Origin: Mermis nigrescens
Lineage: Eukaryota; Nematoda; Enoplea; Mermithida; Mermithidae
Length of the DNA stretch: 64,000 nt
Assembly: GCA_036768485.1 (NCBI GenBank)
Contig: JAVLUZ010000154.1
Span: 24,789,637 to 24,853,636, forward strand
Direction: 5' to 3'
Translations under genes and position numbers: made by a program
Part shown: in pieces, positions 20,812-51,895 of the stretch
Position numbering within the stretch: the first letter of the stretch is position 1
How the letters are laid out: each line of letters opens with the position of its first letter
The notes under the pieces: model-generated
Seen by the model: the letters and a program-made list of their open reading frames with translations, nothing else
The model's database searches: none
Told to the model about the DNA's origin: nothing

Positions 20812-21885
20812 TAATAGAATAGAATAGAATAGTTTATTGGCTGAATTACATGGACGAGACATGTTACAACAAATACCAATACAATAATGCAAAGAATTAT
20901 TAAATGAGCAATTTTAGGAAAGGAATTGTCAATAAATGCAAAAAATAACACGAAATAAGTGAGTTGGTATGTAAATAAAGCCAAGGCGTACAGGCAGTGC
21001 ACTTACATACGCCCCTTAAGAAATTCTAATAAATTAAGCTTTGAAACCAAAACCCTAAACTGTTTAAAATTTCTGCAGTCAGCAATACATTGTGGCAATG
21101 TATTCCAAATTCTAGCCACCCTGTTTGCAAAATCGTTCTTTCTACAATCCAAATGAGATTTTCTAATATACAACTTTATGTCGTTATTTGACCTAGTGCC
21201 CCTGTTAGGTGCAGATTCGAAAAAATCTGAAAAAGAAAGCAACTGTCCCTCAATATCCTAAAAGCAAAAGTAAGGTCAAAATAGATACGCCGTGTTTGAG
21301 TCTTTCAAGATCTAAAAATTCAATCGTTCGCTATAAGACAAATCCTGCTGTTGATGCCGCCAAAGTATTCGTTTTGTAAATTTACCTTGAACATTTTCAA
21401 TTTGGTTGATGTCTTTTATCAGGTAAGGATTCCACACCACTTTGCTATACTCTAGTATCGGTCTTACATAAACTTTAAATGCTTTCACCATCAAATCAAT
21501 ATTTCTGGAAATAAAAGTTTTTTGTATCAAAGAAGCAACTCTGGAAGCTTTGGATGCAATATTCACACAATGAATGCTAGAGGACAGGTCATTACTTACA
21601 AAAACTCCTAAATCCTTGATAGAAGCTTCTGCATCAGCTAGATCTTTTAAGAAAAGGTTATAGATGTTTTTAGGGTTGCCATATTCCAAATACAAGGTTG
21701 CACATTTGTCATAACTTATTTGCAGTTGCCATTTTTCGGTCCACCCATGCAATGAATCAAGGTCTGCTTGCAAGGATCTGAATTCACGTGAAAAATTAAA
21801 TATTTTTAAATCATCAGCAAACAGCATGATATTGCTATGCTTGATACTATCGACCAGGTCGTTAAATATCTCAACATTTAAAGAA
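20812..21885 (-). pseudogene. 5'-truncated CR1/jockey-like LINE, reverse strand
   Basis: On the minus strand the 3' part of a non-LTR reverse transcriptase runs from N-D-L-V-D-S through the catalytic L-F-A-D-D motif (near 21815) to V-R-P-I-L-E-Y and F-T-K-R-I (end near 21312). After a frame break at about 21300-21243 comes the C-terminal R-L-D-C-R-K/F-A-N-R-V-A-R-I-W-N-T-L-P tail (21242-21003). The 3' UTR follows and ends in a (TAGAA)n-type tail at 20812-20830. It lacks the endonuclease and most of the RT, so it is dead. The tail order and the VRPILEY-WNPY region are typical of CR1/jockey-group elements. Confidence 0.8.
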
Positions 21886-22000: not shown

Positions 22001-22344
22001 TCTCTAAATTTAAGGCTTTGAGCCATTCATCATGAGAAATTCCCGTATATCCAAATAGCCTAAGTTGGAAAAAACGGTTTTTATAGGTAACACCGTTTTT
22101 TCCCAGCGATTTGGTTGACATTATAGACCAGACCCAAAATTTTTTTCCACTTTTTCCGACTTTTTTCCACCTTTTTTTTGAAGGTCTAAAAACGTTAAAA
22201 ATAGAGCGCCTGGGCTGAAAAATCAGTGTTTTTTAAGCAGAAAATCCTATGTACACATGCAATAGCGGTGTTTGATGCACTTTTTGCACAAAAAAATTTC
22301 GCGCTCTACAAGAAATATCACGATCAGTATACGTCTATACATCT

Positions 22345-23074
22345 ATATTGCGTCTAAAGCTGCTAGAGTCGCATCCTTAATACACAAAACATTCGTCTCA
22401 AAAAATACCGATTTGATGATCAGAGCTTTTAAAACATACGTTAGACCTATCCTTGAATACGGATCCGTTGTCTGGAATCCATACCAAATTGGAGATATTA
22501 CACGACTTGAAAAAGTACAAAGAAAATTTACAAAAAAATTATTTTGGAATAAAACTTTATCGTATGATGAAAGGTTGAATATCCTAAACTTAGAACGACT
22601 CGAAACCCGTCGTATCCACACTGATCTTGTTTTTGCCTTTAAAATTGTTAAACACAAAATATTGACATTTAATGAATTTTTTGAGCTTGCACCTGATAGA
22701 GGTACTAGATACGTAAATAACATGAAACTGTTCATCAAACAATCACGTTTAGATTGTAGAAAACATGACTTTGCGAACAGAGTGGCTAAAATTTGGAACA
22801 TTCTCCCGCAGAATACAGTTGACTGTAATAACCCAATAGCTTTTAGGAATATGATTTCGGAAATTGATTTTAGTGTTTATCTTAAGGGGCGTACGTAAGA
22901 GCATTGTGCCTTACGCTCCTGGTACCATCGTATTATCTGTTGCTTTATGCACATACTTTGTTTTATGCAGATTGTGTATTATGTTCACATTGACAATGCG
23001 TTTTTACCTACTTTTTATGTGTTTTCTTTAATACTTTTACCGAATAAAATTTTTCTTCTTTCTTCTTTCTTCAT
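22345..23074 (+). pseudogene. 5'-truncated CR1/jockey-like LINE, forward strand
   Basis: An open frame from about 22345 to 22898 gives about 185 residues: A-S-K-A-A-R-V-A-S-L, V-R-P-I-L-E-Y-G-S-V-V-W-N-P-Y, L-N-L-E-R-L-E-T-R-R and the R-L-D-C-R-K...W-N-I-L-P tail. The RT catalytic motif is missing. The 3' UTR ends at a TTCTTTCTTC tail near 23050-23074. It interrupts the dispersed repeat also present at 14690. It is about 60-70 percent alike in protein to the reverse-strand fragment, so it is a different subfamily. Confidence 0.8.
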
Positions 23075-30449: not shown

Positions 30450-30596
30450 CTGGTTGAGAGCTCTTTTTTGTTGTTTTCATTGTTCATTGTGCTCGTAGGA
30501 ACCAGAAAAGAAATAGTTTTTCGCCATAGGTATCTCTCTGGCGAAAGCAAGTTAACAAAGCTCTTTGCGTTAATTATTATTTTGGTCCAAAATAGG
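30450..30596 (+). repeat. LTR-like fragment cut by the assembly gap
   Basis: GAGAGCTCTTTTTTGTTGTTTTCATTGTTCA, AGGAACCA and GCAAGTTAACAAAGCTC follow the order of the Gypsy LTR at 38040-38150 (AGAGCTCGTTGTTGTTG..., AGGAACCA, AACAAGTTAA). It is clearly diverged, so it comes from a related element rather than the same family copy. It runs into the run of N. Confidence 0.5.
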
Positions 30597-30696
30597 NNNN
30601 NNNNNNNNNNNNNNNNNNNNNNNNNNNNNNNNNNNNNNNNNNNNNNNNNNNNNNNNNNNNNNNNNNNNNNNNNNNNNNNNNNNNNNNNNNNNNNNN
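30597..30696. other. Assembly gap (100 N)
   Basis: Exactly 100 unknown bases, the usual placeholder for a gap of unknown size. LTR-like sequence stands on the left and a family A end on the right, so repeats probably caused the break. Confidence 0.99.
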
Positions 30697-37378: not shown

Positions 37379-37382
37379 GCAC
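37379..37382. repeat. Target-site duplication, left copy
   Basis: GCAC directly before the 5' LTR equals GCAC directly after the 3' LTR (51756-51759). A 4-bp duplication fits Ty3/Gypsy integrases. Confidence 0.85.
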
Positions 37383-38443
37383 TGTAACTGCGAGAGTTAC
37401 ACGGTAGGCGAACCTGCCTTAGCAGTTCGCGATAGCCATTACATAGCCAATACTAGTAGCTGTCTATGACGGTGCACTGTGGGCTATGCCTTCGGTCTTC
37501 CCATTATTTCCCCAAATTTTCAATAATAAAAAACAATTAGATACTTGTCCGGTATCGTAGAGTTAAGTGTATGATAATAGTAATTGTTTAATGCATACCG
37601 CTTACGTGAATCGAGAACATTCGATCTGAGATAAAAGTCATTTCAGTATTATGTTTAATTGATCGTTGTTTTATTTTACTGTAGGGGCCCTTGAGGCCAG
37701 TGTACTTAAGCTCGTATTGGAGTCTGGCTTTTGGTTTTGCTTTTCGTTTTTGCCAGTCGTACGTGTACATATTCCGTACGTTTACGTTTTTCTTTTTGCT
37801 TGTTTCCCGGCTATAGGCCGTGTGTTCTTCGTCGAATAAAAATATAGAAAACCAACCCAGTGGTTTTGGTTATACCGAGGGTTAGGTCGGCCACCATCCC
37901 TTCGTCGAGGATTTCCACCCGCTTAGTGGACTGATAGGTAAATTCCGTATGATAGTTTATTTTATTCGGAAATCATATTTTATTTCTCAAGCCAAAAATT
38001 GATCAAAAATATTATTTAATCTTTAGGGATGATTGATCAGCATAGAGCTCGTTGTTGTTGTTTTCATTGTTCAGCGTGCTACACAAATTAGGAACCAAAA
38101 ACATTTCTGATCAGGTACTGATTGAAAACAAGTTAAATTACAACTTGAGCTTGAGATAGGTCAACTGACCTCCGCGGCAAATTCCGAGACTAGGTAGGTA
38201 GCCTTAGGTCTTAGGGCGTAGCTGCTGAGATCACCCGACGAAAAGCAGCCAGCAATATTAGGGCTGAGGGGATCGAAGCCGTAAGGTCTGTAAGGGTCCA
38301 AAGATCGAAAGCCATCCAGAGCCGCGCGATCGGGGCCAGCACTAAGCGCAGACTTAAGTACCTACGTACCTAGGTAAATCTCGAAGGCAAATGTATCCGC
38401 CCTGTGCCGATTCTCAGTAGGCATAGACGGCTCTACATTTACA
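37383..38443 (+). repeat. 5' LTR of the Gypsy element
   Basis: 1061 bp, bounded by TGTAACTG...ATTTACA. It differs from the 3' LTR by three substitutions and one 1-nt indel in a T-run (about 99.7 percent identity in aligned bases). AATAAA at 37835-37840 is a likely poly(A) signal. No clear TATA box was seen. A hairpin-prone GTAACTGCGAGAGTTAC lies at the very start. Confidence 0.97.
37835..37840 (+). promoter_or_regulatory. Poly(A) signal in the 5' LTR
   Basis: AATAAA, repeated at 51147-51152 in the 3' LTR, where it would end the genomic transcript. Confidence 0.5.
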
Positions 38444-38444
38444 T

Positions 38445-38462
38445 TGGACGTTCCCTCCTTTA
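38445..38462 (+). promoter_or_regulatory. Putative primer-binding site
   Basis: TGGACGTTCCCTCC starts one base after the LTR. TGG pairs with the CCA tail of a tRNA. I could not assign the tRNA by eye. Confidence 0.5.
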
Positions 38463-39016
38463 GGCTGCTAGCTACAGCCGAGCTGATCAATCATCGTAAA
38501 ATTATTTTTCGATCCAAAAATCATCATTTTGGCCATCTAAAAATGTGTAACGTTTCGTTCACCTTTGTTGTTGTATCGACCGCGATCGTGGCAGTGCGCA
38601 ATTTAAGTAAGCGTCCGTGGTAAAGATTTTGTGTATCGTGGTAAAGTCATCGTTATTTTTCTATTTCCGTCGAAATTTTTATCGACGAAGGCAGCTCTCA
38701 CGCTCGCATTTTTCTATAAACGTCGACCCACAGGCGACGATTCATCATTTTTTCTCTCTTGACGACGAAATTCCGTCATTTAGGTGTTTACCTACCTGTT
38801 TTTCTAACCACGTACACGTTCTTGCGCATTAGGCTTAGTCCTACCTGTTTTCGATCATTTCACGTCTGGTATATCTTACTTCACGTAAGGAAGTACTATT
38901 TACGTGGAAAAACCTGTTTTTCGGATCGACAAAGGCCAAATTCGAAACATTTATTTTGGGGAATAATTTCGACGTACTGAAATTTACTTTACCCAAGGTC
39001 ACATTTTTCGACATTT
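38463..39016 (+). other. Retrotransposon leader with candidate splice donors
   Basis: No long frame. GTAAGC at 38607, GTAAAG at 38620 and within the repeated CGTGGTAAAG near 38640, and GTAAGG at 38885 are possible donors for a spliced ORF3 message. The word CGTGGTAAAG occurs twice 20 nt apart. Packaging signals probably lie here but cannot be recognised. Confidence 0.45.
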
Positions 39017-40348
39017 TTGATATCTAAAAATGGCAGGAAAAAGGTTTTGCGGACACCGCCCGCTAAATTGAAAAAACCTTCTACGCCACCTACTTCAACT
39101 CGCCAATTACCTACCGCGCCTGTTGACTCTAATAGCGCGAGTAATTCTGCGAGTAATGACACAATTACGAAAGACGTAACTACTACGGCGAATAATGATA
39201 GATTACCCGCGTCACTAAATGCCGCGAGTAATACACAGTCCGATGATGAATTGTTATTGACAACTGTGCGATCGCGCATTAATCAAACTTCGATAACTAG
39301 ATCGGACCCTAACATTGATAATTCATCAAGTCATACAATGATTGATAATACGACTACTCATAACACAGCGAATAATCCTGAAACCAGTTCGGAACGCGAA
39401 AATCCCGATTCTGACGTCGAAAGTAATCATAGTCACAGCATAAATGCCGACCAAGAGCGTGCTAATGCTAATGCGACTAATGATCTTCTTTTGAAAGCTC
39501 TACAAGCTATTCATTTACAATTTTCGGATCTTTCTACGCGCTTTGAACAAGATAAAAAGGCAAATGCGGATGAAATGCGTAAACTGCGTTTGGAGCTAAG
39601 CACTATGCTTAAACCCCAACCAGTTCTGAATCGCATAGAGAGTAATCCATCTGAGCGCGTTAACCACTCAATCGATAGCGCAAATTTTTCTGAATTCAAT
39701 GCACAAACTGCGAATCGTGCGCAAAGTACGCATCGTGCATCCTCACTGTTGTCTACTAGCAACAGAGCGTCAAATTCACGCTCACCTTCGGAAACCGTTC
39801 CTGAAAATATAACTCAAAGTTGTACAAATCGCGCGCCTGTGATGTCTAATTTGTCACAGAATCCTTTAAACACGGGTTTGCAACCAGTGCAAAACTCGGG
39901 TTTTTCGGAAAATATACCTACGATTGTGCAGCCGTCGGTATCGATTTCGCAGACGTCGCGATCTCGACCTTCGCTGTCTTTAAATCGTAATGCGCCTTCT
40001 TTCGTACCTAGCTCTTCTACTACGAACTCGCAGCAGCAATTGAATCCTCCTCCGCTGCAATATTTTCCACCTCAAGGCGAAAATTTACCTAATAGCTATG
40101 TACCTAATCCCATAAATGTGGAAATACCACTTAATAATAATATTTTGCATTCTTCCAATATCGAAATGCAACCTGTTGAGATAAATCTATCTGGCATTAA
40201 CACCGAATCTGCACCTCCACCTGAATCGTCTAGTAGGAAAAAACATGTCAAATTCTCTGACGACAGCTCATCTAGTAGCTATGATCGCCCGCGCAGTCGT
40301 CGCTCGCGTCGCAAGGGTCGATCAGCGCAGACGACGTCATCGGCATAG
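39017..40348 (+). CDS. ORF1: Gag N-terminal-like polar protein, no in-frame ATG
   Basis: 443 codons open from 38981, rich in Ser, Asn, Thr and Pro. It has one predicted coiled coil around residues 157-200 (L-L-L-K-A-L-Q-A-I...M-R-K-L-R-L-E-L) and an Arg/Ser-rich end. Coiled-coil plus low-complexity sequence upstream of a capsid domain suits a Gag N-terminal region. The frame lacks an ATG for its first ~100 codons. The best-placed ATG (39030) reads in another frame, separated from this one by a five-A run. ORF1 overlaps ORF2 by 104 nt, ORF2 being in the +1 frame. The product may thus depend on recoding or non-AUG initiation, or this copy has a 1-nt lesion. Confidence 0.7.
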   Translation: MISKNGRKKVLRTPPAKLKKPSTPPTSTRQLPTAPVDSNSASNSASNDTITKDVTTTANNDRLPASLNAASNTQSDDELLLTTVRSRINQTSITRSDPNIDNSSSHTMIDNTTTHNTANNPETSSERENPDSDVESNHSHSINADQERANANATNDLLLKALQAIHLQFSDLSTRFEQDKKANADEMRKLRLELSTMLKPQPVLNRIESNPSERVNHSIDSANFSEFNAQTANRAQSTHRASSLLSTSNRASNSRSPSETVPENITQSCTNRAPVMSNLSQNPLNTGLQPVQNSGFSENIPTIVQPSVSISQTSRSRPSLSLNRNAPSFVPSSSTTNSQQQLNPPPLQYFPPQGENLPNSYVPNPINVEIPLNNNILHSSNIEMQPVEINLSGINTESAPPPESSSRKKHVKFSDDSSSSSYDRPRSRRSRRKGRSAQTTSSA

Positions 40349-43300
40349 TTCAGGTTCTTCATCTGAAAGCTCTCGTGGTGACTCGCGTCTTGCTGATTCC
40401 TTGAATCGCGGACCATTTTTGCAGCAAATGCAATTTGCAATTGCTAATAAAAAATTTTTTGATGGTGATAAATCGGATATGAAAGCATATTTTGCGGAAT
40501 TTGAATCGCTTGCCAATACCTATGATATTGACAAAGCTGATCGTTTAAAATTCGCTACTGGATTTCTTGATCCTTATGCTTTGCGTTTATACCGTTCGTT
40601 ACCTGCTGACATACAACAATCGTATTCAAAAACGAAACAAGCGCTAATAGCCGAATTTTGTCCAATGGACACCGGTGCGCTCTTTAATCGTTTTTTGTCA
40701 CACAAACAGCAGCCTAACGAATCGGTTAAAGCTTATTATCTCTCGCTTCGCGAAGAATTAATTAAGTCGGATCCTTACCTTGAAATTGATTCGCCACATT
40801 TCAATAATTTAATGCGACATCAGCTAAAAGAAGGTTTATTACCACACATTTCGAAAGAGGCATATCACAAAAAACCTAGAGCATCATTAGCTGAATTTTT
40901 GGATAATGCGCTAAGCGCTGAATTTGCTAACAAAGAATTTGAGGATAAAAAGGCAGTAACGCCTTATGTATCGGTAACAGCTGCTCCAGTAGGCAGCGCA
41001 GTACCTAAAGATACTCCTCGCGTATCTAACCAAACTGATTCAAATCGCTCACGTTATAAAACGTTTCATCGCTCATCGCGTGCTGAGAAACCAGAAAGTT
41101 CTTCTCGTAAATATTGCACCTTTTGCAAGCGCATAGGTCACATTTATGAGGAATGTTTCACGCGTCAAAGGCAAGAAGTAACTAATAATACTAATCAGAA
41201 CAATCAAGCAGAGCGAAATAATAATTCTATGGCTCGCAATCGCAGCCAATCGCGTTCTTTTTCGCGTCGAAATCGTTCGCCATCGCGTTCGAATTCGCAA
41301 AATAGACATCGATCTCAATCACGATATCGTAACCCTAGTCAACATCGCTCATTTAACTATGCAAATAATGATAATCGCTTTGAATCAAAGCAATCACGAT
41401 CGAATTTTCGGCAAAATCGTAATGATTATTACCAAAATTCGCGTGCTAATTATCAAAATTCGCGTTACGACAATCGCTATAATAATCAATCGCGCCAAAA
41501 TACACCTTTCGTGCAATTTCCAAATGAACAACGTGGGACATACTATAACTCGAACTATCGCAACGACAATAATTTTAATCGCCCTTATGTTACATATACC
41601 GCAGATAACCAGCCCACCATGAATGCGCCCCCACCGCAGCCAACCCCTACATCTCCTCATGATGTAAACACGGTTACTGCGAAAGGGCCAGAATCTAGCG
41701 CGCGTCCTAATTTATTCGCGTCGCAAGAATTTCTCGAAGAGTACGAACGTTTACAACGTCGTCTTGCAACTTACGAGAAAATAAATCTACCTCCGTCTAA
41801 GATCTTAGATCCTAATATTCCTATTGTAAGTCACGCTGGAACTAATTTACCCACTATTCTCGTCAAAGTTCATGGCGTTGAGGTACCTGCTCTCATAGAT
41901 ACAGGTTCACAGGTCACCATGATGACCACATCTGCATTCTTGCGTCTTGGTTTTAATTTACCACCTAAACAAGTTTCGCAAGTTGTGCATGGTGTAGGCG
42001 AAATTACTGCAGTCGTTCGCTATAAAGTAAATATGACTCTAACCATCGCGGAACAATCTATTACTACCTCAGTTGCTATAATTGATCATTTGCCGGAAGA
42101 CATGCTTTTAGGATATGATTTTTGCGAATCCGCACTCATGTGGGTTAATCCTATTGAGCGTTGTGCTTTTATAAACGGCATAAAGGTTAATTTACTCTCA
42201 TCTCATGAAAAATTGCAATTTCGCACGAAACCCAACGCAACCACCTCTGGTGTTGTGTGTGTGCATGTTTCGTTGCCCGAGCCTGTTATAATACAACCTA
42301 GGCATGAATTAATTACACCTGGCTATATAAGTCATGGTTCTTGCAATTTTGATTTCGCACTATTCGAACCAAATCCTGATTTTATGGAGAAAACATCACT
42401 TTTTGTTGCTCCATCTATAGTCGATGCTTCACAACCTTTAATACCTGTTCGCGTCTGTAACATCTCTAAAGCGCCAATTCGCATTGACTCTGGTGACATA
42501 ATAGGTTCTTTAACCACTGATGCCGAGGTTGTGTCACATGTTTCATCTTTGGATGATAGGACACCAGAACTTTTCGCATCAATAAATAAAGCTTTAAACG
42601 GCTCCGCCGTTGATTCTAGACAACAGCAACAAATTCGTGAATTATGTCTAAAATACGACTCAATTTTTGCACTAAAAAACGAACCTCTCGGTCGTACCCC
42701 CTTGATGAAACATCATATCGATACAGGGGATAATCCACCCGTTGTGGGAAAAACTTATCGTGTCGAACATTCTAGAAGGGAATCTATGCAGAAAATTATA
42801 AATGAAATGCTTGCGGATAAAATTATTCGACCTACAACTAGCCCATGGGCAAGTCCATTATTTCTCATTGGAAAAAAGGACGGTTCCCTAAGGCCAGTCG
42901 TCGATTATCGACGGTTAAATGACGTTACTAAAACACAAGTTTATCCTCTTCCGCAACTAGATGATTATTTTGATACTTTAGGCAGTGCTGCATATTTTAG
43001 CACACTAGATTTGAAATCTGGATACTGGCAAATCCCACTCGATAATAAATCTCGCGAAAAAACAGCATTTATATGTCCTGTTGGTCATTATGAATTTGAA
43101 GTTTTACCTTTTGGGTTAAAGAATGCGCCCGCAGATTTTCAAAGACTAATGGAGCTCGTGCTCGCAGGTCTAAATTGGAAATCTTGTCTCGTTTACATCG
43201 ATGACATAATTATCTTTTCACGCACTTTCAAAGAACATTTAAAAGATCTCGAAAATGTCTTTATTGCTCTTAAAAAGGCAAACTTACGTGTAAAGCCTGA

Positions 43301-45827
43301 TAAGTGCCATCTTGCGCATGCAGAGGTAAAATTTCTTGGCCATAGCATAAGTGCAATGGGCATCGCTCCTGACATGTCCAAAGTCGCGGATTTAATCTCG
43401 TTTCCCGTACCAAAAACCGTAAAATCCTTGCAGAAATTCCTTGGTTTAGTCCAATGGTTTAAGAAATTCGTTAAAGACCTCGCTAAAATTGCTAAACCGC
43501 TATTCCATCTTCTGCGTAAAGATGTCGAATTTTGCTGGAAGGCTGAACACCAAACCGCCTTTGAGCTTCTGAAGAAAGCATTTACGTCCCCACCTATTTT
43601 ACAATTACCGAAATTCGATGATGAGCACCAATTTATTTTAACAACTGACGCAAGTAACTATGCGTTAGGTGCTATTTTGACACAAAAACACTTACCATCA
43701 AAAAATCGTTTTATTCTTAGCTACGCTAGTCGCGTACTAAATTCTGCCGAATGTAATTATGCTACTTCGGAAAAAGAAGCGTTAGCGGTAGTGTGGGCCA
43801 TCAAGCATTATCGACACTATCTTTACGGTAAAAAATTTGTTGTCGAAACTGATCATCAAGCGTTAACCTGGCTAGTAAACGTAAAAGACCCATCGAGTCG
43901 ATTACGCCGTTGGGGTCTCAAATTACAGGAATACGAATATGATATCGTTTACGTTCCTGGTGCATATAATTGCGCAGCTGATCTTCTCTCACGTCATCCT
44001 AAATATGATCATGCAGAACGAAAATATAAAGTCGAGCGCAAAAATATCGTTAACATCGCAAATTTAGAATCAGAAGATTCTGAGTCAGATGATGAATCGG
44101 TTCCACCTGACCGATCGCGCGATAACGCGCCTAATGCACCAATTAATCATCCAAATGCGCAAAATAATGTTCCTACTGCGCAAACCGATCCTACTAATTC
44201 TAAACCACCTACATTTCGCGAACGCTTGTTACTTACCGATGCCGAAAAAGCTGAAATGCTAACACCTGCGCGTTTACTCGCTGAGCAACGTGCAGATGAC
44301 GAATTGCATAAAATTCGCATCGCATTGAACGACTTAACAACGAAAAAATATCGTGACGAATTTTTTCTCGTAAACGATGTACTTTTTCGTCGTTTCCAAC
44401 CTAAGCGCTCACCAACTGTCGTTCATCAAATAGTCATACCCAAATCTTTGCGTCGCTTCATATTAACGGAATTTCATGACTCTATTTTCGGAGCTCATTT
44501 TTCATCGCGCAAAATCTTGCCCGCCATTCAAATGCGTTATTGGTGGCCGCGCATGGAAAATGATGTGATCGCGTGGTGTCGGAATTGTGATGTGTGCTTA
44601 CAACGTAAGGTCGCATTAAATTCCACATCCGTTCCGCTGCAACCAATCGAAGTATCCGCACCCTTTGAACTCATTGCGTGCGATTGTTTGCATATGCCGC
44701 GATCCCCCTCCGGAAATGACCAAATTGTAGTTTTTATGGATTATTTCACAAAATACGTGGAAGCTTTTGCTGTTTCTGATATCAAAGCAACAACTATCGC
44801 AAATTTATTATTACGAGAAATTATACCACGTTATGGAGTCCCCAAGAAATTTTTAACAGATCAGGGGTCAAATTTTACATCTACCCTTATTTCGGAAGTC
44901 TGTAAATTATTAAACGTTCAAAAGATATTTACAACCCCATATCACCCCCAGTGTGATGGGTTGGTGGAACGTTATAATCGAACTTTGATTGATGGTTTGT
45001 CGAAGCTGAGTGCGCGTTCCCAGTATGATTGGGAGCAATTTTTACCTTTTGCATTATTTGCATACCGCGCAACTCCGCAATCATCGACTAATATATCTCC
45101 TTTCGAAATGCTTTATGGTCGCGAACCAGCATTTCCTCTTGACACTTTACTAATAAATGACTTCGTGATAAATCCGAATTTACCTTCCGTTGCGGAAAAA
45201 TATGTCATTGATTTAAAGCTGACTTTACAAGACTTGCATGAAATCGCATCTCAAAATTTAACGCAAGCGCGTAAGCAGCAGAAATCACAATATGACAAGT
45301 CCGTAACGCAAACAAATTTTTCTCTTTCGGATATAGTCTATCTTAATAATACCTCAGTCATTCAACCTGAAATAGGTAAATTATCACCCAAGCGTGTGGG
45401 TCCATACCGAATTATTGACTTACCCACGCCTGAAACTGCGAAAATCGCATATGTCTATAACCCTCTTATCGTTCATCACGTTCATAGGAATAGACTTCTG
45501 CCTGAGCCTAAACTACCTTATTCTGACTTAATTGTGGAAAAACACGCGTACGTCCCTGGCGATTTTGTGTTGGTTAAATTACCACATCGCCCTCTTGCCC
45601 CGGCAGTTGTCATAAGTTTTGAGGATTTACCGGGCAGGGAACAAAAAGCTAAGGACTGCGCGCCTATACGTTTATTAAATGGCTCTAAAACAGCACATGC
45701 CGTACCATTATCTAATGTTTTTCCTTTTGCAGACCCATGGCTGCAGAAGGCACCCCAAGCAAAGAGGCATTGCTGGAGGCAGCTGGTCGCCGATGCAAAT
45801 TCGAAGGGCGTGATCCCGCGTCCTTAG
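40245..45827 (+). CDS. pol: ORF2: Gag-Pol polyprotein (capsid, CCHC, PR, RT, RNase H, integrase)
   Basis: 1860 residues in one intact frame. Capsid-like retrotransposon gag domain ~59-232, RS-rich linker, CCHC zinc knuckle C291-C304 (C-x2-C-x4-H-x4-C), aspartic protease with D552-T-G-S, RT with Y984-I-D-D, RNase H starting near D1135 and integrase. The integrase has a zinc region H1411...C1445-C1448-C1451, catalytic D1480, D1539 and E1575 (exactly 35 residues between the last two) and a G-P-Y motif near 1717. All key residues are present, so the enzyme set looks functional. Gag and Pol are in one frame, so no gag-pol shift is needed. A chromodomain is not evident. The last ~30 codons overlap ORF3 in another frame. 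Confidence 0.97.
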   Translation: MSNSLTTAHLVAMIARAVVARVARVDQRRRRHRHSSGSSSESSRGDSRLADSLNRGPFLQQMQFAIANKKFFDGDKSDMKAYFAEFESLANTYDIDKADRLKFATGFLDPYALRLYRSLPADIQQSYSKTKQALIAEFCPMDTGALFNRFLSHKQQPNESVKAYYLSLREELIKSDPYLEIDSPHFNNLMRHQLKEGLLPHISKEAYHKKPRASLAEFLDNALSAEFANKEFEDKKAVTPYVSVTAAPVGSAVPKDTPRVSNQTDSNRSRYKTFHRSSRAEKPESSSRKYCTFCKRIGHIYEECFTRQRQEVTNNTNQNNQAERNNNSMARNRSQSRSFSRRNRSPSRSNSQNRHRSQSRYRNPSQHRSFNYANNDNRFESKQSRSNFRQNRNDYYQNSRANYQNSRYDNRYNNQSRQNTPFVQFPNEQRGTYYNSNYRNDNNFNRPYVTYTADNQPTMNAPPPQPTPTSPHDVNTVTAKGPESSARPNLFASQEFLEEYERLQRRLATYEKINLPPSKILDPNIPIVSHAGTNLPTILVKVHGVEVPALIDTGSQVTMMTTSAFLRLGFNLPPKQVSQVVHGVGEITAVVRYKVNMTLTIAEQSITTSVAIIDHLPEDMLLGYDFCESALMWVNPIERCAFINGIKVNLLSSHEKLQFRTKPNATTSGVVCVHVSLPEPVIIQPRHELITPGYISHGSCNFDFALFEPNPDFMEKTSLFVAPSIVDASQPLIPVRVCNISKAPIRIDSGDIIGSLTTDAEVVSHVSSLDDRTPELFASINKALNGSAVDSRQQQQIRELCLKYDSIFALKNEPLGRTPLMKHHIDTGDNPPVVGKTYRVEHSRRESMQKIINEMLADKIIRPTTSPWASPLFLIGKKDGSLRPVVDYRRLNDVTKTQVYPLPQLDDYFDTLGSAAYFSTLDLKSGYWQIPLDNKSREKTAFICPVGHYEFEVLPFGLKNAPADFQRLMELVLAGLNWKSCLVYIDDIIIFSRTFKEHLKDLENVFIALKKANLRVKPDKCHLAHAEVKFLGHSISAMGIAPDMSKVADLISFPVPKTVKSLQKFLGLVQWFKKFVKDLAKIAKPLFHLLRKDVEFCWKAEHQTAFELLKKAFTSPPILQLPKFDDEHQFILTTDASNYALGAILTQKHLPSKNRFILSYASRVLNSAECNYATSEKEALAVVWAIKHYRHYLYGKKFVVETDHQALTWLVNVKDPSSRLRRWGLKLQEYEYDIVYVPGAYNCAADLLSRHPKYDHAERKYKVERKNIVNIANLESEDSESDDESVPPDRSRDNAPNAPINHPNAQNNVPTAQTDPTNSKPPTFRERLLLTDAEKAEMLTPARLLAEQRADDELHKIRIALNDLTTKKYRDEFFLVNDVLFRRFQPKRSPTVVHQIVIPKSLRRFILTEFHDSIFGAHFSSRKILPAIQMRYWWPRMENDVIAWCRNCDVCLQRKVALNSTSVPLQPIEVSAPFELIACDCLHMPRSPSGNDQIVVFMDYFTKYVEAFAVSDIKATTIANLLLREIIPRYGVPKKFLTDQGSNFTSTLISEVCKLLNVQKIFTTPYHPQCDGLVERYNRTLIDGLSKLSARSQYDWEQFLPFALFAYRATPQSSTNISPFEMLYGREPAFPLDTLLINDFVINPNLPSVAEKYVIDLKLTLQDLHEIASQNLTQARKQQKSQYDKSVTQTNFSLSDIVYLNNTSVIQPEIGKLSPKRVGPYRIIDLPTPETAKIAYVYNPLIVHHVHRNRLLPEPKLPYSDLIVEKHAYVPGDFVLVKLPHRPLAPAVVISFEDLPGREQKAKDCAPIRLLNGSKTAHAVPLSNVFPFADPWLQKAPQAKRHCWRQLVADANSKGVIPRP
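45719..45732 (+). promoter_or_regulatory. 3' splice site just before the ORF3 ATG
   Basis: The pyrimidine tract TTTTTCCTTTTGCAG ends at 45732 and the ATG follows at 45737. This is a near-ideal acceptor inside the end of ORF2. In gypsy-type errantiviruses env is made from a spliced RNA with an acceptor close to the env start, so the same strategy is likely here. Confidence 0.7.
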
Positions 45828-48800
45828 ATGAGTTTCGTTCGGCGTTGACCAGTATGGCTTTAGAGCGGGGTTTGGTTGTACCAGACCCGCTGCCACAAAA
45901 CGACGATAGTCGTGTTAGCGGTTTACAAGCATTCACTGCTAGATGGGTTAAGCACAAAGTAGCACATAAAATTAAAAATCATACTAAGCGTATAAACGAT
46001 CAACAGCTCTGGTGGGAGAATAGATTTCGTAGATTTCCTTTGGTAACCCCTCGCGTACCAAGGAACAGGCCTATGCCTACGGTCATAGTCTCCGACGACC
46101 AGAAGTCGTTTGCCGCCATTTTGGCGTTAATTCAACCATCAAATTTGACTAATGGCACACTATTTTTAGGCTACGATTCTGAATTTGTTAATGACAGGAA
46201 AGGCAGACACTATAAGACCTGGGACTTGCGTTTTCAGCAATTATGTCCCACCTACCAGGACCTCCATGGCCCATTCGTACGCTACGTCCAAGTTGCGAGC
46301 GCGAACGGTCATGTGTTCTGCTGGGACCTGGCGAAGTTCCCGCAACCTCCGTTCGGGCTTCACCAGTTGCTCGAAACACGTTTGCCAAATGTATATATGG
46401 TTTGTTACGATCCTACGCAAGATCGACTTGCGTACTTTCACGTTTACGGTCCAACTTTTGAGGAAATTTTGGCAATCCCAGATGCAGAAATTCGCAATCA
46501 ACTGCACTGGAAGGATCCATTCATCGCTAATTTTATCGATATTCAGCCATTAGCGAGAGAATTTACTCGTCGTTTTCGCATCACAGCGCGTTCACACACA
46601 TTGAAGCGCTTGGCTGAGTTCCTATTTGACATGTATCTTGACCCGAACGCGCCTGATAACTTCGGACAGGCGTGGAGTTTACCGTTAACTCGGGACATGC
46701 AGAATTATTTAGTGATGGACGCCCTTATAACTATCGATGTTTTTATATTGATAGAAGGGACATCGCAAAATAATCGCATTACTGACGATAGAAAGCCTAT
46801 GTCAGTCTCATTTGTAGGCGATGAATTGCACATTAAGGCCACTGGCCCAAAAGCCAGAGTGCGTATACCATTGTCGACTAGCAAACCACCGCAAGGACAG
46901 TCGACCAGCACAGCTGCTGAAGCTGAAGTCGAAGTTGACTCGAATGGTGAAGAATTAATTAGAGTTGAGGACTTCTATGGCCCGGTTCCGCAACTTCCAG
47001 CGGCCATAGCAGCAGCCACCACCGTTGCCTCAGTAACGGAAGCGTTGGCTCACACTAATGTCTTTGACAATCCTGACCTACAAGTTCAGGATTCGCAGGC
47101 CGTTGCCGACTCAGTTTTGGGCCCGGCTTATGCACCTGATACCGAACCAAAATCTAAACCAACCAGTTCGAGTACACCTGCATCTGCGTTTTCTTCGCAA
47201 ACCGATATTCCATATGATTCGCCAATGATCGATGTAGAACCGATCTCCACTGAAGACGATGATTTATCTCCTAAGCGTTTAGTTATGGCGTTATCCGACA
47301 CCGAGGCGGAAAGACAAGCTAATTTGTCACCACCGCGTTCTACACGCGTGGCATTGGCTAGAAAAGGGGCTGTTACCGTTTCGCAACCGATTGTCTCACA
47401 ATCGCTTGCGGCGGACCAACAAGCGCCCTTGGGCATCAGTTCGCTCGGACCTTTGCCGACTTCACAGCCGGGTCGGGTAGAGCGTGACTCTGAGCCCGAT
47501 GTGATCATGACTGAGATTATCGGTTTTCCGCCGGTGACACAACAAATTTTACCCGCGCACGAAGTACCACAAGTAGCATTGTATACGCAAGTCGCGACTC
47601 ATTCCGCGCCACAAGGCGTGTCGACACCAGATGCTCGTTTTATGGCTCCTATGGCCATGACGGGTGTGTCGAGTACTGTGGCGACTATTCACCCACAGGC
47701 AATTCAAAGTCAGTCATCAAATAGGGAAGTCGCCATACCCCCAATGATGCAAGCTATTCGCGATCGTATGGCCGCGAATGAAAGCGCGAGAGTGCAAAGC
47801 CGCTCGCGCTACGTTCAGCATTTTTTCACCATGATGGAAAATATGACGCGAGAACCTCCGTGCACTGTCGCACCAGTTGTATTGCACGAGTTACATGACA
47901 GTTTGGGTGAGGTTGAAGGAACGCGTGTATATGATCAGCTGGTTGAAGCTGCACAAGTGTACTTCGACCGAGTGTATGCAATCCATTTGCAGCACGCGAC
48001 TTCAACTGATTCCCCGTCGCGTCCATTAGTGTGGCCCTTGACCGCACAGTCTTTGGCTGATGTGGATCGTCCACCCGCACCTCGATTTATCAGCGAATTG
48101 AGTGTGTTTAACCGATTGTTTTATCCCGATCAATATTTTGTGCGCATACGTTTCTTTATTACAACGGGAATGATGTTGTACGAAGTGCCGTTAGAGTATT
48201 TGGTGGTGCACCCGCACCTTGACGCACCGACTGAAGTGTCTGATGGTGTTGCTCATCAGGTTCGCCCGGAGTTATATCCACACAGGATGTCTCCAGCGCC
48301 AGATCACATGGCACCCATCTTAATATCGGCACGTCAGATGGTCGATATTTTCGATACTTTCCGAGAATTTCAAGCATTATATGATTCGGAGTATCGACAC
48401 ATGACGATCTTTTCTTCCATAGACGTCATGCGCGCTACAGCGCTTTTGGAATTCCTGGACAGGAAGTTCCACTTCTTTGCGTACGCCTACGGAAATCCCG
48501 GAATAGGCTGGCGCATGGTGGAGCAGTTACGTCGCATGTTGCGCGTAGCGTTCCTTGGCGAATCTTATACACCTTCGCCAAGTGAGGCTTTTCCGGAATT
48601 CCCGGATTTAACAGCACGAATTGAAAGTCCTCATGTTTTACATAACATGATTCGCCAAATTCGGCTAGCAACCGATCCGCCGCTCGAAGTTCCGGCGCAA
48701 TTCGATCGTTTTAGAGGTCAACAAAAATCGGTCTTTTTCTTAAAACATCGAATTCAAGGCGAATTAGAAAAAATTCGCAGACAAAGGCGACAGGCATCCT

Positions 48801-49891
48801 CGCAGGACCCTAGTGGATCCGTAGCGAGCCTTGAATTGCCAGAAGTCGACCTTTCCTTGGAAGCACAAATTGAAATGCGTAGAACACGCATGACGATCGA
48901 GAAACGCGATCGTGAGAATTTGGCTACGGAAATGCCACGGCGTGTGACGAAATTACGCGCCGCCGGTTCTCTTACTGAAGCTTCCGAGGTTCGTCATATG
49001 CCAGAAGACAAACATAAGGCGAAATTGAACCGATTTTATGACACAAAGTCCGAACACGCTTTGCGTCGACTAAAAAACTTGGAAAAGCAACGAGTCAGAA
49101 GACTCGTTCAAGCTGAAGTTGCAGCTAAATTAAAAGCGCGTTTAGGCCCAAAGGGATCGAGGCGGCAAGAACCGCAATCATCCCGGCAACGCTATGCTGC
49201 AACACACCACCGATCACAATCGCAAGCACAACAGCAAACGCAAGTAAAACCGCATATACAGCAATATACAAGACCGCAAACCCAACCGCGGCAACAACAG
49301 CATTTTACGGAATCGCGTGAGCGTTCCGAGGCGTATGCACAGGCCGATGCTGGTCATCTGTCGCGCTCGCGACAGCAGCAGCCTTACGAGTATCGCCGCC
49401 AACCACAGTCAAACCGCGGAACTCATCAGGACCGGTCACAATCCCGTCAACGGCAGCAATGGGATCAATCGTATCGCTCTCCGTTGGAACAAAGTCAACC
49501 AGCCACCGGGGGTTATCAGCCACAACCTCGACCGGGTCCACTTTTGCCAAAACCGTGGCCTGTTAATCAACAACAACAGCGTCCACGCGAACCTTCTCGT
49601 CAACGAACTTACGGTTTTACGCCGGAGCAATTATTTACTCCGACGCCACCCATACCGCGTCGTTATGCTGACGACTACGAGGACGATGACGATTTTGAGG
49701 ACGACGATCGACCCGTCGATCCACATCAACGCTTACGCCAACACATGTACGGGCGTAGGCAATCGCCATATCAATATCGTGAGCGTTCGAATACGCGTCG
49801 CGAACCGGAATCCGATCAGGAATATTTTCAACGACAACGACGTCGCGGAAAATCGTATGGCTCGAAGGCCAATTACCGCGATCAATATTAA
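45737..49891 (+). CDS. ORF3: DEDDy 3'-5' exonuclease-like protein in env position
   Basis: 1384 residues. Residues ~115-345 fit the RNase D/WRN/Mut-7 exonuclease fold: motif I G-Y-D147-S-E149-F, motif II region Y-D-P-T-Q-D229-R-L-A-Y-F, a helix S-H-T-L-K-R-L-A-E-F, then W-S-L-P-L-T and motif III Y324-L-V-M-D328. All four acidic metal-ligand positions and the Tyr are present, though D225 could replace D229 as the motif II residue. Then come a disordered Ser/Thr/Pro region (~345-660), a globular region I do not recognise (~765-980), a charged coiled coil (~1000-1135) and a Gln/Arg-rich tail with an acidic patch (~1310-1326). No signal peptide or membrane span, so it is not an envelope protein. 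It overlaps ORF2 by 91 nt. Role unknown. Nucleic-acid 3' trimming is the obvious inference. Confidence 0.85.
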   Translation: MAAEGTPSKEALLEAAGRRCKFEGRDPASLDEFRSALTSMALERGLVVPDPLPQNDDSRVSGLQAFTARWVKHKVAHKIKNHTKRINDQQLWWENRFRRFPLVTPRVPRNRPMPTVIVSDDQKSFAAILALIQPSNLTNGTLFLGYDSEFVNDRKGRHYKTWDLRFQQLCPTYQDLHGPFVRYVQVASANGHVFCWDLAKFPQPPFGLHQLLETRLPNVYMVCYDPTQDRLAYFHVYGPTFEEILAIPDAEIRNQLHWKDPFIANFIDIQPLAREFTRRFRITARSHTLKRLAEFLFDMYLDPNAPDNFGQAWSLPLTRDMQNYLVMDALITIDVFILIEGTSQNNRITDDRKPMSVSFVGDELHIKATGPKARVRIPLSTSKPPQGQSTSTAAEAEVEVDSNGEELIRVEDFYGPVPQLPAAIAAATTVASVTEALAHTNVFDNPDLQVQDSQAVADSVLGPAYAPDTEPKSKPTSSSTPASAFSSQTDIPYDSPMIDVEPISTEDDDLSPKRLVMALSDTEAERQANLSPPRSTRVALARKGAVTVSQPIVSQSLAADQQAPLGISSLGPLPTSQPGRVERDSEPDVIMTEIIGFPPVTQQILPAHEVPQVALYTQVATHSAPQGVSTPDARFMAPMAMTGVSSTVATIHPQAIQSQSSNREVAIPPMMQAIRDRMAANESARVQSRSRYVQHFFTMMENMTREPPCTVAPVVLHELHDSLGEVEGTRVYDQLVEAAQVYFDRVYAIHLQHATSTDSPSRPLVWPLTAQSLADVDRPPAPRFISELSVFNRLFYPDQYFVRIRFFITTGMMLYEVPLEYLVVHPHLDAPTEVSDGVAHQVRPELYPHRMSPAPDHMAPILISARQMVDIFDTFREFQALYDSEYRHMTIFSSIDVMRATALLEFLDRKFHFFAYAYGNPGIGWRMVEQLRRMLRVAFLGESYTPSPSEAFPEFPDLTARIESPHVLHNMIRQIRLATDPPLEVPAQFDRFRGQQKSVFFLKHRIQGELEKIRRQRRQASSQDPSGSVASLELPEVDLSLEAQIEMRRTRMTIEKRDRENLATEMPRRVTKLRAAGSLTEASEVRHMPEDKHKAKLNRFYDTKSEHALRRLKNLEKQRVRRLVQAEVAAKLKARLGPKGSRRQEPQSSRQRYAATHHRSQSQAQQQTQVKPHIQQYTRPQTQPRQQQHFTESRERSEAYAQADAGHLSRSRQQQPYEYRRQPQSNRGTHQDRSQSRQRQQWDQSYRSPLEQSQPATGGYQPQPRPGPLLPKPWPVNQQQQRPREPSRQRTYGFTPEQLFTPTPPIPRRYADDYEDDDDFEDDDRPVDPHQRLRQHMYGRRQSPYQYRERSNTRREPESDQEYFQRQRRRGKSYGSKANYRDQY

Positions 49892-50684
<793 letters not shown>

Positions 50685-50693
50685 GTGGGGGAG
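50685..50693 (+). promoter_or_regulatory. Polypurine tract
   Basis: GTGGGGGAG directly before the 3' LTR, the expected plus-strand primer position. Confidence 0.75.
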
Positions 50694-51755
50694 TGTAACT
50701 GCGAGAGTTACACGGTAGGCGAACCTGCCTTAGCAGTTCGCGATAGCCATTACATAGCCAATACTAGTAGCTGTCTATGACGGTGCACTGTGGGCTATGC
50801 CTTCGGTCTTCCCATTATTTCCCCAAATTTTCAATAATAAAAAACAATTAGATACTTGTCCGGTATCGTAGAGTTAAGTGTATGATAATAGTAATTGTTT
50901 AATGCATACCGCTTACGTGAATCGAGAACATTCGATCTGAGATAAAAGTCATTTCAGTATTATGTTTAATTGATCGTTGTTTTATTTTACTGTAGGGGCC
51001 CTTGAGGCCAGTGTGCTTAAGCTCGTATTGGAGTCTGGCTTTTGGTTTTTGCTTTTCGTTTTTGCCAGTCGTACGTGTACATATTCCGTACGTTTACGTT
51101 TTTCTTTTTGCTTGTTTCCCGGCTATAGGCCGTGTATTCTTCGTCGAATAAAAATATAGAAAACCAACCCAGTGGTTTTGGTTATACCGAGGGTTAGGTC
51201 GGCCACCATCCCTTCGTCGAGGATTTCCACCCGCTTAGTGGACTGATAGGTAAATTCCGTATGATAGTTTATTTTATTCGGAAATCATATTTTATTTCTC
51301 AAGCCAAAAATTGATCAAAAATATTATTTAATCTTTAGGGATGATTGATCAGCATAGAGCTCGTTGTTGTTGTTTTCATTGTTCAGCGTGCTACACAAAT
51401 TAGGAACCAAAAACATTTCTGATCAGGTACTGATTGAAAACAAGTTAAATTACAACTTGAGCTTGAGATAGGTCAACTGACCTCCGCGGCAAATTCCGAG
51501 ACTAGGTAGGTAGCCTTAGGTCTTAGGGCGTAGCTGCTGAGATCACCCGACGAAAAGCAGCCAGCAATATTAGGGCTGAGGGGATCGAAGCCGTAAGGTC
51601 TGTAAGGGTCCAAAGATCGAAAGCCATCCAGTGCCGCGCGATCGGGGCCAGCACTAAGCGCAGACTTAAGTACCTACGTACCTAGGTAAATCTCGAAGGC
51701 AAATGTATCCGCCCTGTGCCGATTCTCAGTAGGCATAGACGGCTCTACATTTACA
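50694..51755 (+). repeat. 3' LTR of the Gypsy element
   Basis: 1062 bp, the partner of 37383-38443. The differences are A/G in AGTGT(A/G)CTTAAG, G/A in CGTGT(G/A)TTC, A/T in CCAG(A/T)GCC and one extra T. It is followed by GCAC, the second copy of the target duplication (51756-51759). Confidence 0.97.
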
Positions 51756-51895
51756 GCACGCACGTTTCTGCAAATGTACTATAATGCACTGAATTCACTG
51801 TTCAAAACCGGAAAATTTTCAGCAAATCACCCGGGAAAACCGGGTGAAACCCGGAAATTTCATATGGAGAAATTGCTGACTACCCTGTAATATCA

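Follow-up and report, generated by a model that had tools for sequence, protein, structure and literature searches.

The question raised by this locus is what a long terminal repeat (LTR) retrotransposon encodes where an env gene would be expected. The locus lies in a window of 64,000 nucleotides (the whole stretch of DNA that was analyzed) from the nematode Mermis nigrescens (GenBank assembly GCA_036768485.1, contig JAVLUZ010000154.1, positions 24,789,637 to 24,853,636). An LTR element occupies positions 37383–51755 on the + strand and encodes Gag, protease-reverse transcriptase-RNase H-integrase (PR-RT-RNaseH-IN) and, in the env position, a third open reading frame (ORF3; 45737–49891, + strand) of 1384 residues in a single open frame. 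A first-pass annotation had proposed that ORF3 carries a DEDDy 3'-5' exonuclease. ORF3 was found to be a real gene under purifying selection, and residues 100–350 (46034–46786, + strand) are predicted, with good probability, to be a DEDDy-type domain on the basis of Pfam, profile alignment and conservation.

Layout of ORF3 and selection among its genomic copies

The start of ORF3 overlaps the end of pol (40245–45827) by 91 bp. The predicted exonuclease domain is followed on the + strand by an acidic low-complexity linker (residues 351–660; 46787–47716; net charge −17), a constrained region assigned to no known family (residues 661–1005; 47717–48751), a basic region (residues 1006–1140; 48752–49156; net charge +12) and a basic Gln/Arg/Ser/Tyr-rich tail (residues 1141–1384; 49157–49888; net charge +14), the linker, basic region and tail being delimited by composition. 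The extension of approximately 1000 residues described in the first-pass annotation is therefore present. The last 379 residues are net basic, with Gln, Arg, Ser and Tyr enriched towards the end. Pieces covering residues 661–1005 had no match in Pfam, NCBIfam or PHROGs; among all ORF3 pieces the NCBIfam scan gave none, and PHROGs gave a single family of unknown function (E 0.14). No ORF3 homologue was found in the protein database (E ≤1), in viral_contigs or in genome_contigs, and none of the exonuclease part in the protein database at E ≤10, where searches with ORF3 score only candidates having short exact words in common with it.

Membrane features are absent from ORF3, as had been claimed. 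The highest 19-residue Kyte-Doolittle mean was 1.64, so that no transmembrane-grade segment was found in the 1384 residues, and the Pfam scans of ORF3 contained no envelope family. An envelope or other membrane protein diverged past recognition would be in keeping with the post-pol position and a predicted splice acceptor, and with these only; for want of a transmembrane-grade segment, envelope identity was rejected, and this explanation is regarded as extremely improbable.

The host genome assembly (523,963,438 bases, 860 contigs) was searched with ORF3, and 34 places were scored from 3975 candidates, 26 of them without internal stop. The places fell into two groups, A (n=12) at 95–100% identity and B (n=22) at 87–90%. 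Twenty-eight of the 34 were retrieved, of which 25 proved complete and free of stops, L089, L108 and L109 having been set aside; the remaining six all carry stops. Since the places were ranked by score, the copy counts lean towards intact copies. In three pairs of copies (C44/C58, C41/C843 and C513/C839) the right flank was common to both members at 99–100% identity, each pair being one insertion, so that the assembly seems to contain some insertions in duplicate, either as haplotype copies or through segmental duplication. After the pairs were merged, 22 distinct copies were available (8 A and 14 B). The eight scored places with internal stops hold 10 of them, all TGA and none TAA or TAG, a pattern that would fit decay of CGA codons.

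The ratio of nonsynonymous to synonymous divergence (dN/dS, method of Nei and Gojobori) was determined between groups A and B using the 22 distinct copies. It was 0.130 for the whole of ORF3, and by segment 0.125 for residues 1–99, 0.089 for the exonuclease region, 0.186 for the linker, 0.117 for residues 661–1005, 0.114 for residues 1006–1140 and 0.128 for the tail. Purifying selection, for which a test had been called for earlier, was thereby borne out both over the whole frame and in the exonuclease region. A chance open frame or pseudogene was rejected on the whole-frame ratio and on the stop-free majority of scored places. Variable columns in the alignment of 25 copies were also scarcer in the exonuclease region (39/252) than in the rest of ORF3 (291/1134; Fisher p 0.0004). 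For comparison, dN/dS was 0.045 for PR-IN and 0.220 for Gag (4 A and 7 B copies), which places the constraint on ORF3 below that on the pol enzymes and above that on Gag. Silent divergence between the groups was approximately twice as high in ORF3 (dS 0.46) as in PR-IN (0.24), a hint that modules were exchanged or that the two parts differ in history.

When the genome was searched with the exonuclease piece, 146 places were scored from 2736 candidates, all at 91–100% identity. A stop lay inside three of the 146, and 35 of them are contained in open frames of 1385 residues or more; these places were ranked by score, some represent one insertion counted twice, and divergent families may exist besides. 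The gag-pol frame shifts at least once in 21 of 24 copies (pol stretches L132–L155, from copies chosen for an intact ORF3). The proposition that ORF3 stays intact while pol decays was dropped, the copies having been selected by that very intactness. Three copy pairs with identical pol breaks were examined, and in all three the right flank was identical too, the two members of each pair being one insertion.

Evidence for and against a DEDDy domain

The candidate catalytic residues were located where they had been claimed, together with W-S-L-P-L-T: D147 (46175–46177), E149 (46181–46183), D229 (46421–46423) and D328 (46718–46720) as candidate metal ligands and Y324 (46706–46708) as a further candidate catalytic residue, all on the + strand. 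Their order and spacing (D-x-E, D, Y-x3-D) are colinear with a bacterial RNase D profile. Conservation of the metal ligands among sister copies had been set beforehand as a point on which the assignment could fail; all five residues were retained in 25/25 complete stop-free copies.

Pfam family PF01612 gave E 0.19 for one domain piece of the window copy, and E 0.0054–0.008 for the domains of group B sister copies, in which it was the sole Pfam-A family matched at E ≤10 among 24,736 models. Alignment with 80 close RNase Ds using hhalign (25 copies) was unsuccessful, and a broader RNase D profile was built for that reason. An alignment to this profile that was blind to the motifs matched the five residues to the catalytic columns for 14 of the 22 distinct copies. 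A regular expression fitted post hoc to ORF3 was satisfied by 0/20,000 shuffles of residues 1–400, which is weak evidence.

A number of results weigh against the assignment, the failed hhalign comparison among them. Full-length window ORF3 had no Pfam match at E ≤1, nor did a 300-residue piece, and the PF01612 matches (11.9–17.0 bits) lie below the 23.6-bit cut-off and span only the motif-III half of the profile. Once the catalytic columns were masked, the Z score of the profile fell to 2.3–2.9, as against 3.49 for the best negative window. At least one negative window matched four of the five residue types in the profile alignment, and all five were matched by 7/1000 and 10/1000 shuffles with 15- and 13-row profiles, respectively. 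In the Klenow positive control the last column of the profile fell off the residue that we take to be catalytic. BLASTP against Escherichia coli RNase D returned short chance-level pieces only, and sequence searches of the PDB returned nothing relevant. AlphaFold gave unusable models, with a predicted local distance difference test (pLDDT) score of 43.0 from the single sequence (residues 100–360) and 32.6 from 14 aligned copies (residues 61–360). Fold searches with the former model had no RNase H-like exonuclease among the matches listed and are uninformative.

Several of these results would fit coincidental motifs and an ORF3 that is an element protein of another fold: a sub-threshold Pfam score over half of a profile, no usable model, a masked-profile signal like that of negatives and empty PDB searches. 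Against such a protein stand the singular match to PF01612 in the group B domains and the presence of all motifs, in order and invariant, and it is considered unlikely. The DEDDy case rests on the motif columns and Pfam, since masking the catalytic columns removes the edge over negatives. What the first-pass annotation proposed has accordingly been strengthened by the sister-copy Pfam match, the controlled profile alignment and purifying selection, and weakened by the masked profile; of the PF01612 search that it had asked for, the exclusiveness of the match stood and a score above the cut-off did not materialize.

Expression and putative roles of ORF3

A splice-acceptor-like pyrimidine tract ending in CAG (45718–45732, + strand) terminates 4 nt upstream of the ATG of ORF3. 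A pattern scan of the leader located two candidate splice donors, both GTAAG (38607–38611 and 38885–38889, + strand). The acceptor-like tract was identical in 15/15 copies compared, which is no proof of splicing because the tract doubles as pol coding sequence. ORF3 is likely, as predicted from these signals, to be made from a spliced, env-like mRNA. According to a study of rotifer elements, spliced messages are the typical source of ORF3s in LTR elements (PMC5408684), and the protein CERV of the element Cer1 comes from a spliced mRNA (PMC10309623).

Tentatively, and with a probability somewhat short of even, the following mechanism is favored. A spliced env-like mRNA would give rise to a separate 1384-residue ORF3 protein, of which residues 100–350 would fold as a DEDDy 3'-5' exonuclease. 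The basic tail, for which RNA binding is predicted from composition, would bind nucleic acid and carry the exonuclease to RNA, whose 3' ends it would then trim within the ribonucleoprotein of the element itself. RNA rather than complementary DNA (cDNA) is suggested as the substrate because ORF3 lies outside the Pol polyprotein, is made separately and probably from a spliced message, and ends in a basic Arg/Ser/Gln-rich tail. RNA 3'-end trimming could also take the form of counter-defence, which is part of the same explanation: a Mut-7/Nibbler-like enzyme, guided by the tail to the RNA of the element, would trim the 3' ends of silencing small RNAs. This more specific role is doubtful; if true, no weapon of this kind would have been known in a Gypsy element before.

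An active DEDDy exonuclease might act instead on the DNA of the element, by trimming cDNA 3' ends or removing misincorporations during reverse transcription. The Pfam match, profile alignment and invariant residues are identical evidence for this possibility; single-stranded DNA is also a DEDDy substrate (PMC5408684), and the DEDDy domain of Dada transposases has been proposed to process the 3' ends of cleaved DNA (PMC3706591). Coupling to reverse transcription is nevertheless less natural for a separate ORF3 with its own predicted acceptor, outside Gag-Pol, than for a domain beside RT, and action on DNA is considered unlikely.

A third role would resemble that of CERV, with ORF3 as a regulator required for unspliced genomic RNA to be exported or handled and the exonuclease fold only binding RNA. 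CERV takes the place of env in a Gypsy/Ty3 element, is made from spliced mRNA and is needed for export of genomic RNA, and its G domain is GTPase-like but lacks the residues for hydrolysis (PMC10309623). Maelstrom and EXD1 are inactive RNA-binding derivatives of DEDD domains according to the rotifer paper (PMC5408684). A domain used only for binding would have no need of the complete retention of candidate catalytic residues seen here, however, and ORF3 is likened to CERV by description; such a regulator is considered rather unlikely. RNA trimming by an active enzyme remains the favored role.

The host element and related systems

The host element is a Ty3/Gypsy-type LTR retrotransposon, as judged from its LTRs, target duplication and pol order. 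The 5' LTR (37383–38443, 1061 bp) and 3' LTR (50694–51755, 1062 bp), both on the + strand, are 99.6% identical, with three mismatches and one gap, have TG...CA ends and are flanked by a 4-bp GCAC target-site duplication (37379–37382 and 51756–51759). This identity, with the GCAC duplication, indicates a young insertion. ORF1 (39017–40348, + strand) encodes a low-complexity N-terminal Gag-like part, and ORF2 (40245–45827, + strand) the Gag capsid region, PR, RT, RNase H and integrase. The gag frame is broken between ORF1 and ORF2 in the window copy; in sister copy L119 one frame crosses the junction. Pfam matches in ORF2 were RVT_1 (1.1e-35), RT_RNaseH (1.3e-35), Integrase_H2C2 (5.3e-19), rve (1.9e-11) and Asp_protease_2 (1.1e-11), in the pol order PR-RT-RNaseH-IN, with Retrotrans_gag at E 1.3e-4, under the cut-off of that family. 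The pol search returned 1986 proteins at E ≤0.001, the top match (P0001; 61% identity) being on a 9980-base contig, and the named relatives in the protein database included K02A2.6-like and transposon 412-like proteins; viral_contigs held no match to pol. dUTPase was not among the 13 Pfam families found at E ≤1.

Elsewhere in the window, 37 bp at 30457–30493 have 89% identity to the element LTR and lie beside a 100-base N gap (30597–30696); they could be a piece of a related LTR. Two further ORFs, at 21312–21827 (− strand) and 22272–22898 (+ strand), have a stretch in common that, as judged by eye, resembles the terminal part of a non-LTR reverse transcriptase.

The rotifer precedent given in the first-pass annotation is correct. 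DEDDy ORF3s of bdelloid rotifers were reported in 2017, both from the LTR elements Juno and Vesta and from Athena/Terminon, their activity being undemonstrated (PMC5408684), and are mentioned later in PMC6431247 and PMC6338049. Juno and Vesta resemble the window element in having gag, pol and a third DEDDy ORF replacing env, young LTRs, and no transmembrane domain. A DEDDy ORF3 in an LTR element is thus already known from bdelloids, and the window element differs in several respects: the pols of Juno, Vesta and TelKA have a dUTPase between PR and RT where Pfam found none here, the LTRs are 159–551 bp in the rotifer elements versus 1061 bp, and the catalytic motif is DEED in the rotifers whereas DEDD is retained here. 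The comparison with these ORF3s is one of published descriptions. In the open-licence PMC literature, covered mostly as titles and abstracts, no LTR element outside bdelloids was seen to carry a DEDDy ORF3; in PMC5348765, to which such a finding is credited elsewhere, the terms exonuclease, DnaQ and Exo had no occurrences.

Other systems are likewise comparable in part. The order and spacing of D-x-E, D and Y-x3-D are as in RNase D, WRN, Mut-7 and Nibbler (PF01612), from which ORF3 differs by large N- and C-terminal extensions, the sequences compared being those of bacterial RNase D. A DEDDy domain captured by a mobile element is present in some Dada DNA transposases, within the DDE transposase and not, as here, in a separate retroelement ORF (PMC3706591). 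CERV of Caenorhabditis elegans Cer1 has 517 residues, exons in common with gag and a pseudo-GTPase-like G domain in place of an exonuclease (PMC10309623).

The rotifer authors left open whether the enzyme is active and what it is for, and this question becomes testable in the present family, which is of recent origin and offers many copies with an open ORF3. The extension of approximately 1000 residues may show the target to which the nuclease is delivered. If ORF3 is active, selection has preserved a DEDDy exonuclease in LTR elements in which, unlike the bdelloid ones, no dUTPase was found, and this would suggest a recurring job of DEDDy enzymes for LTR elements rather than accidental capture.

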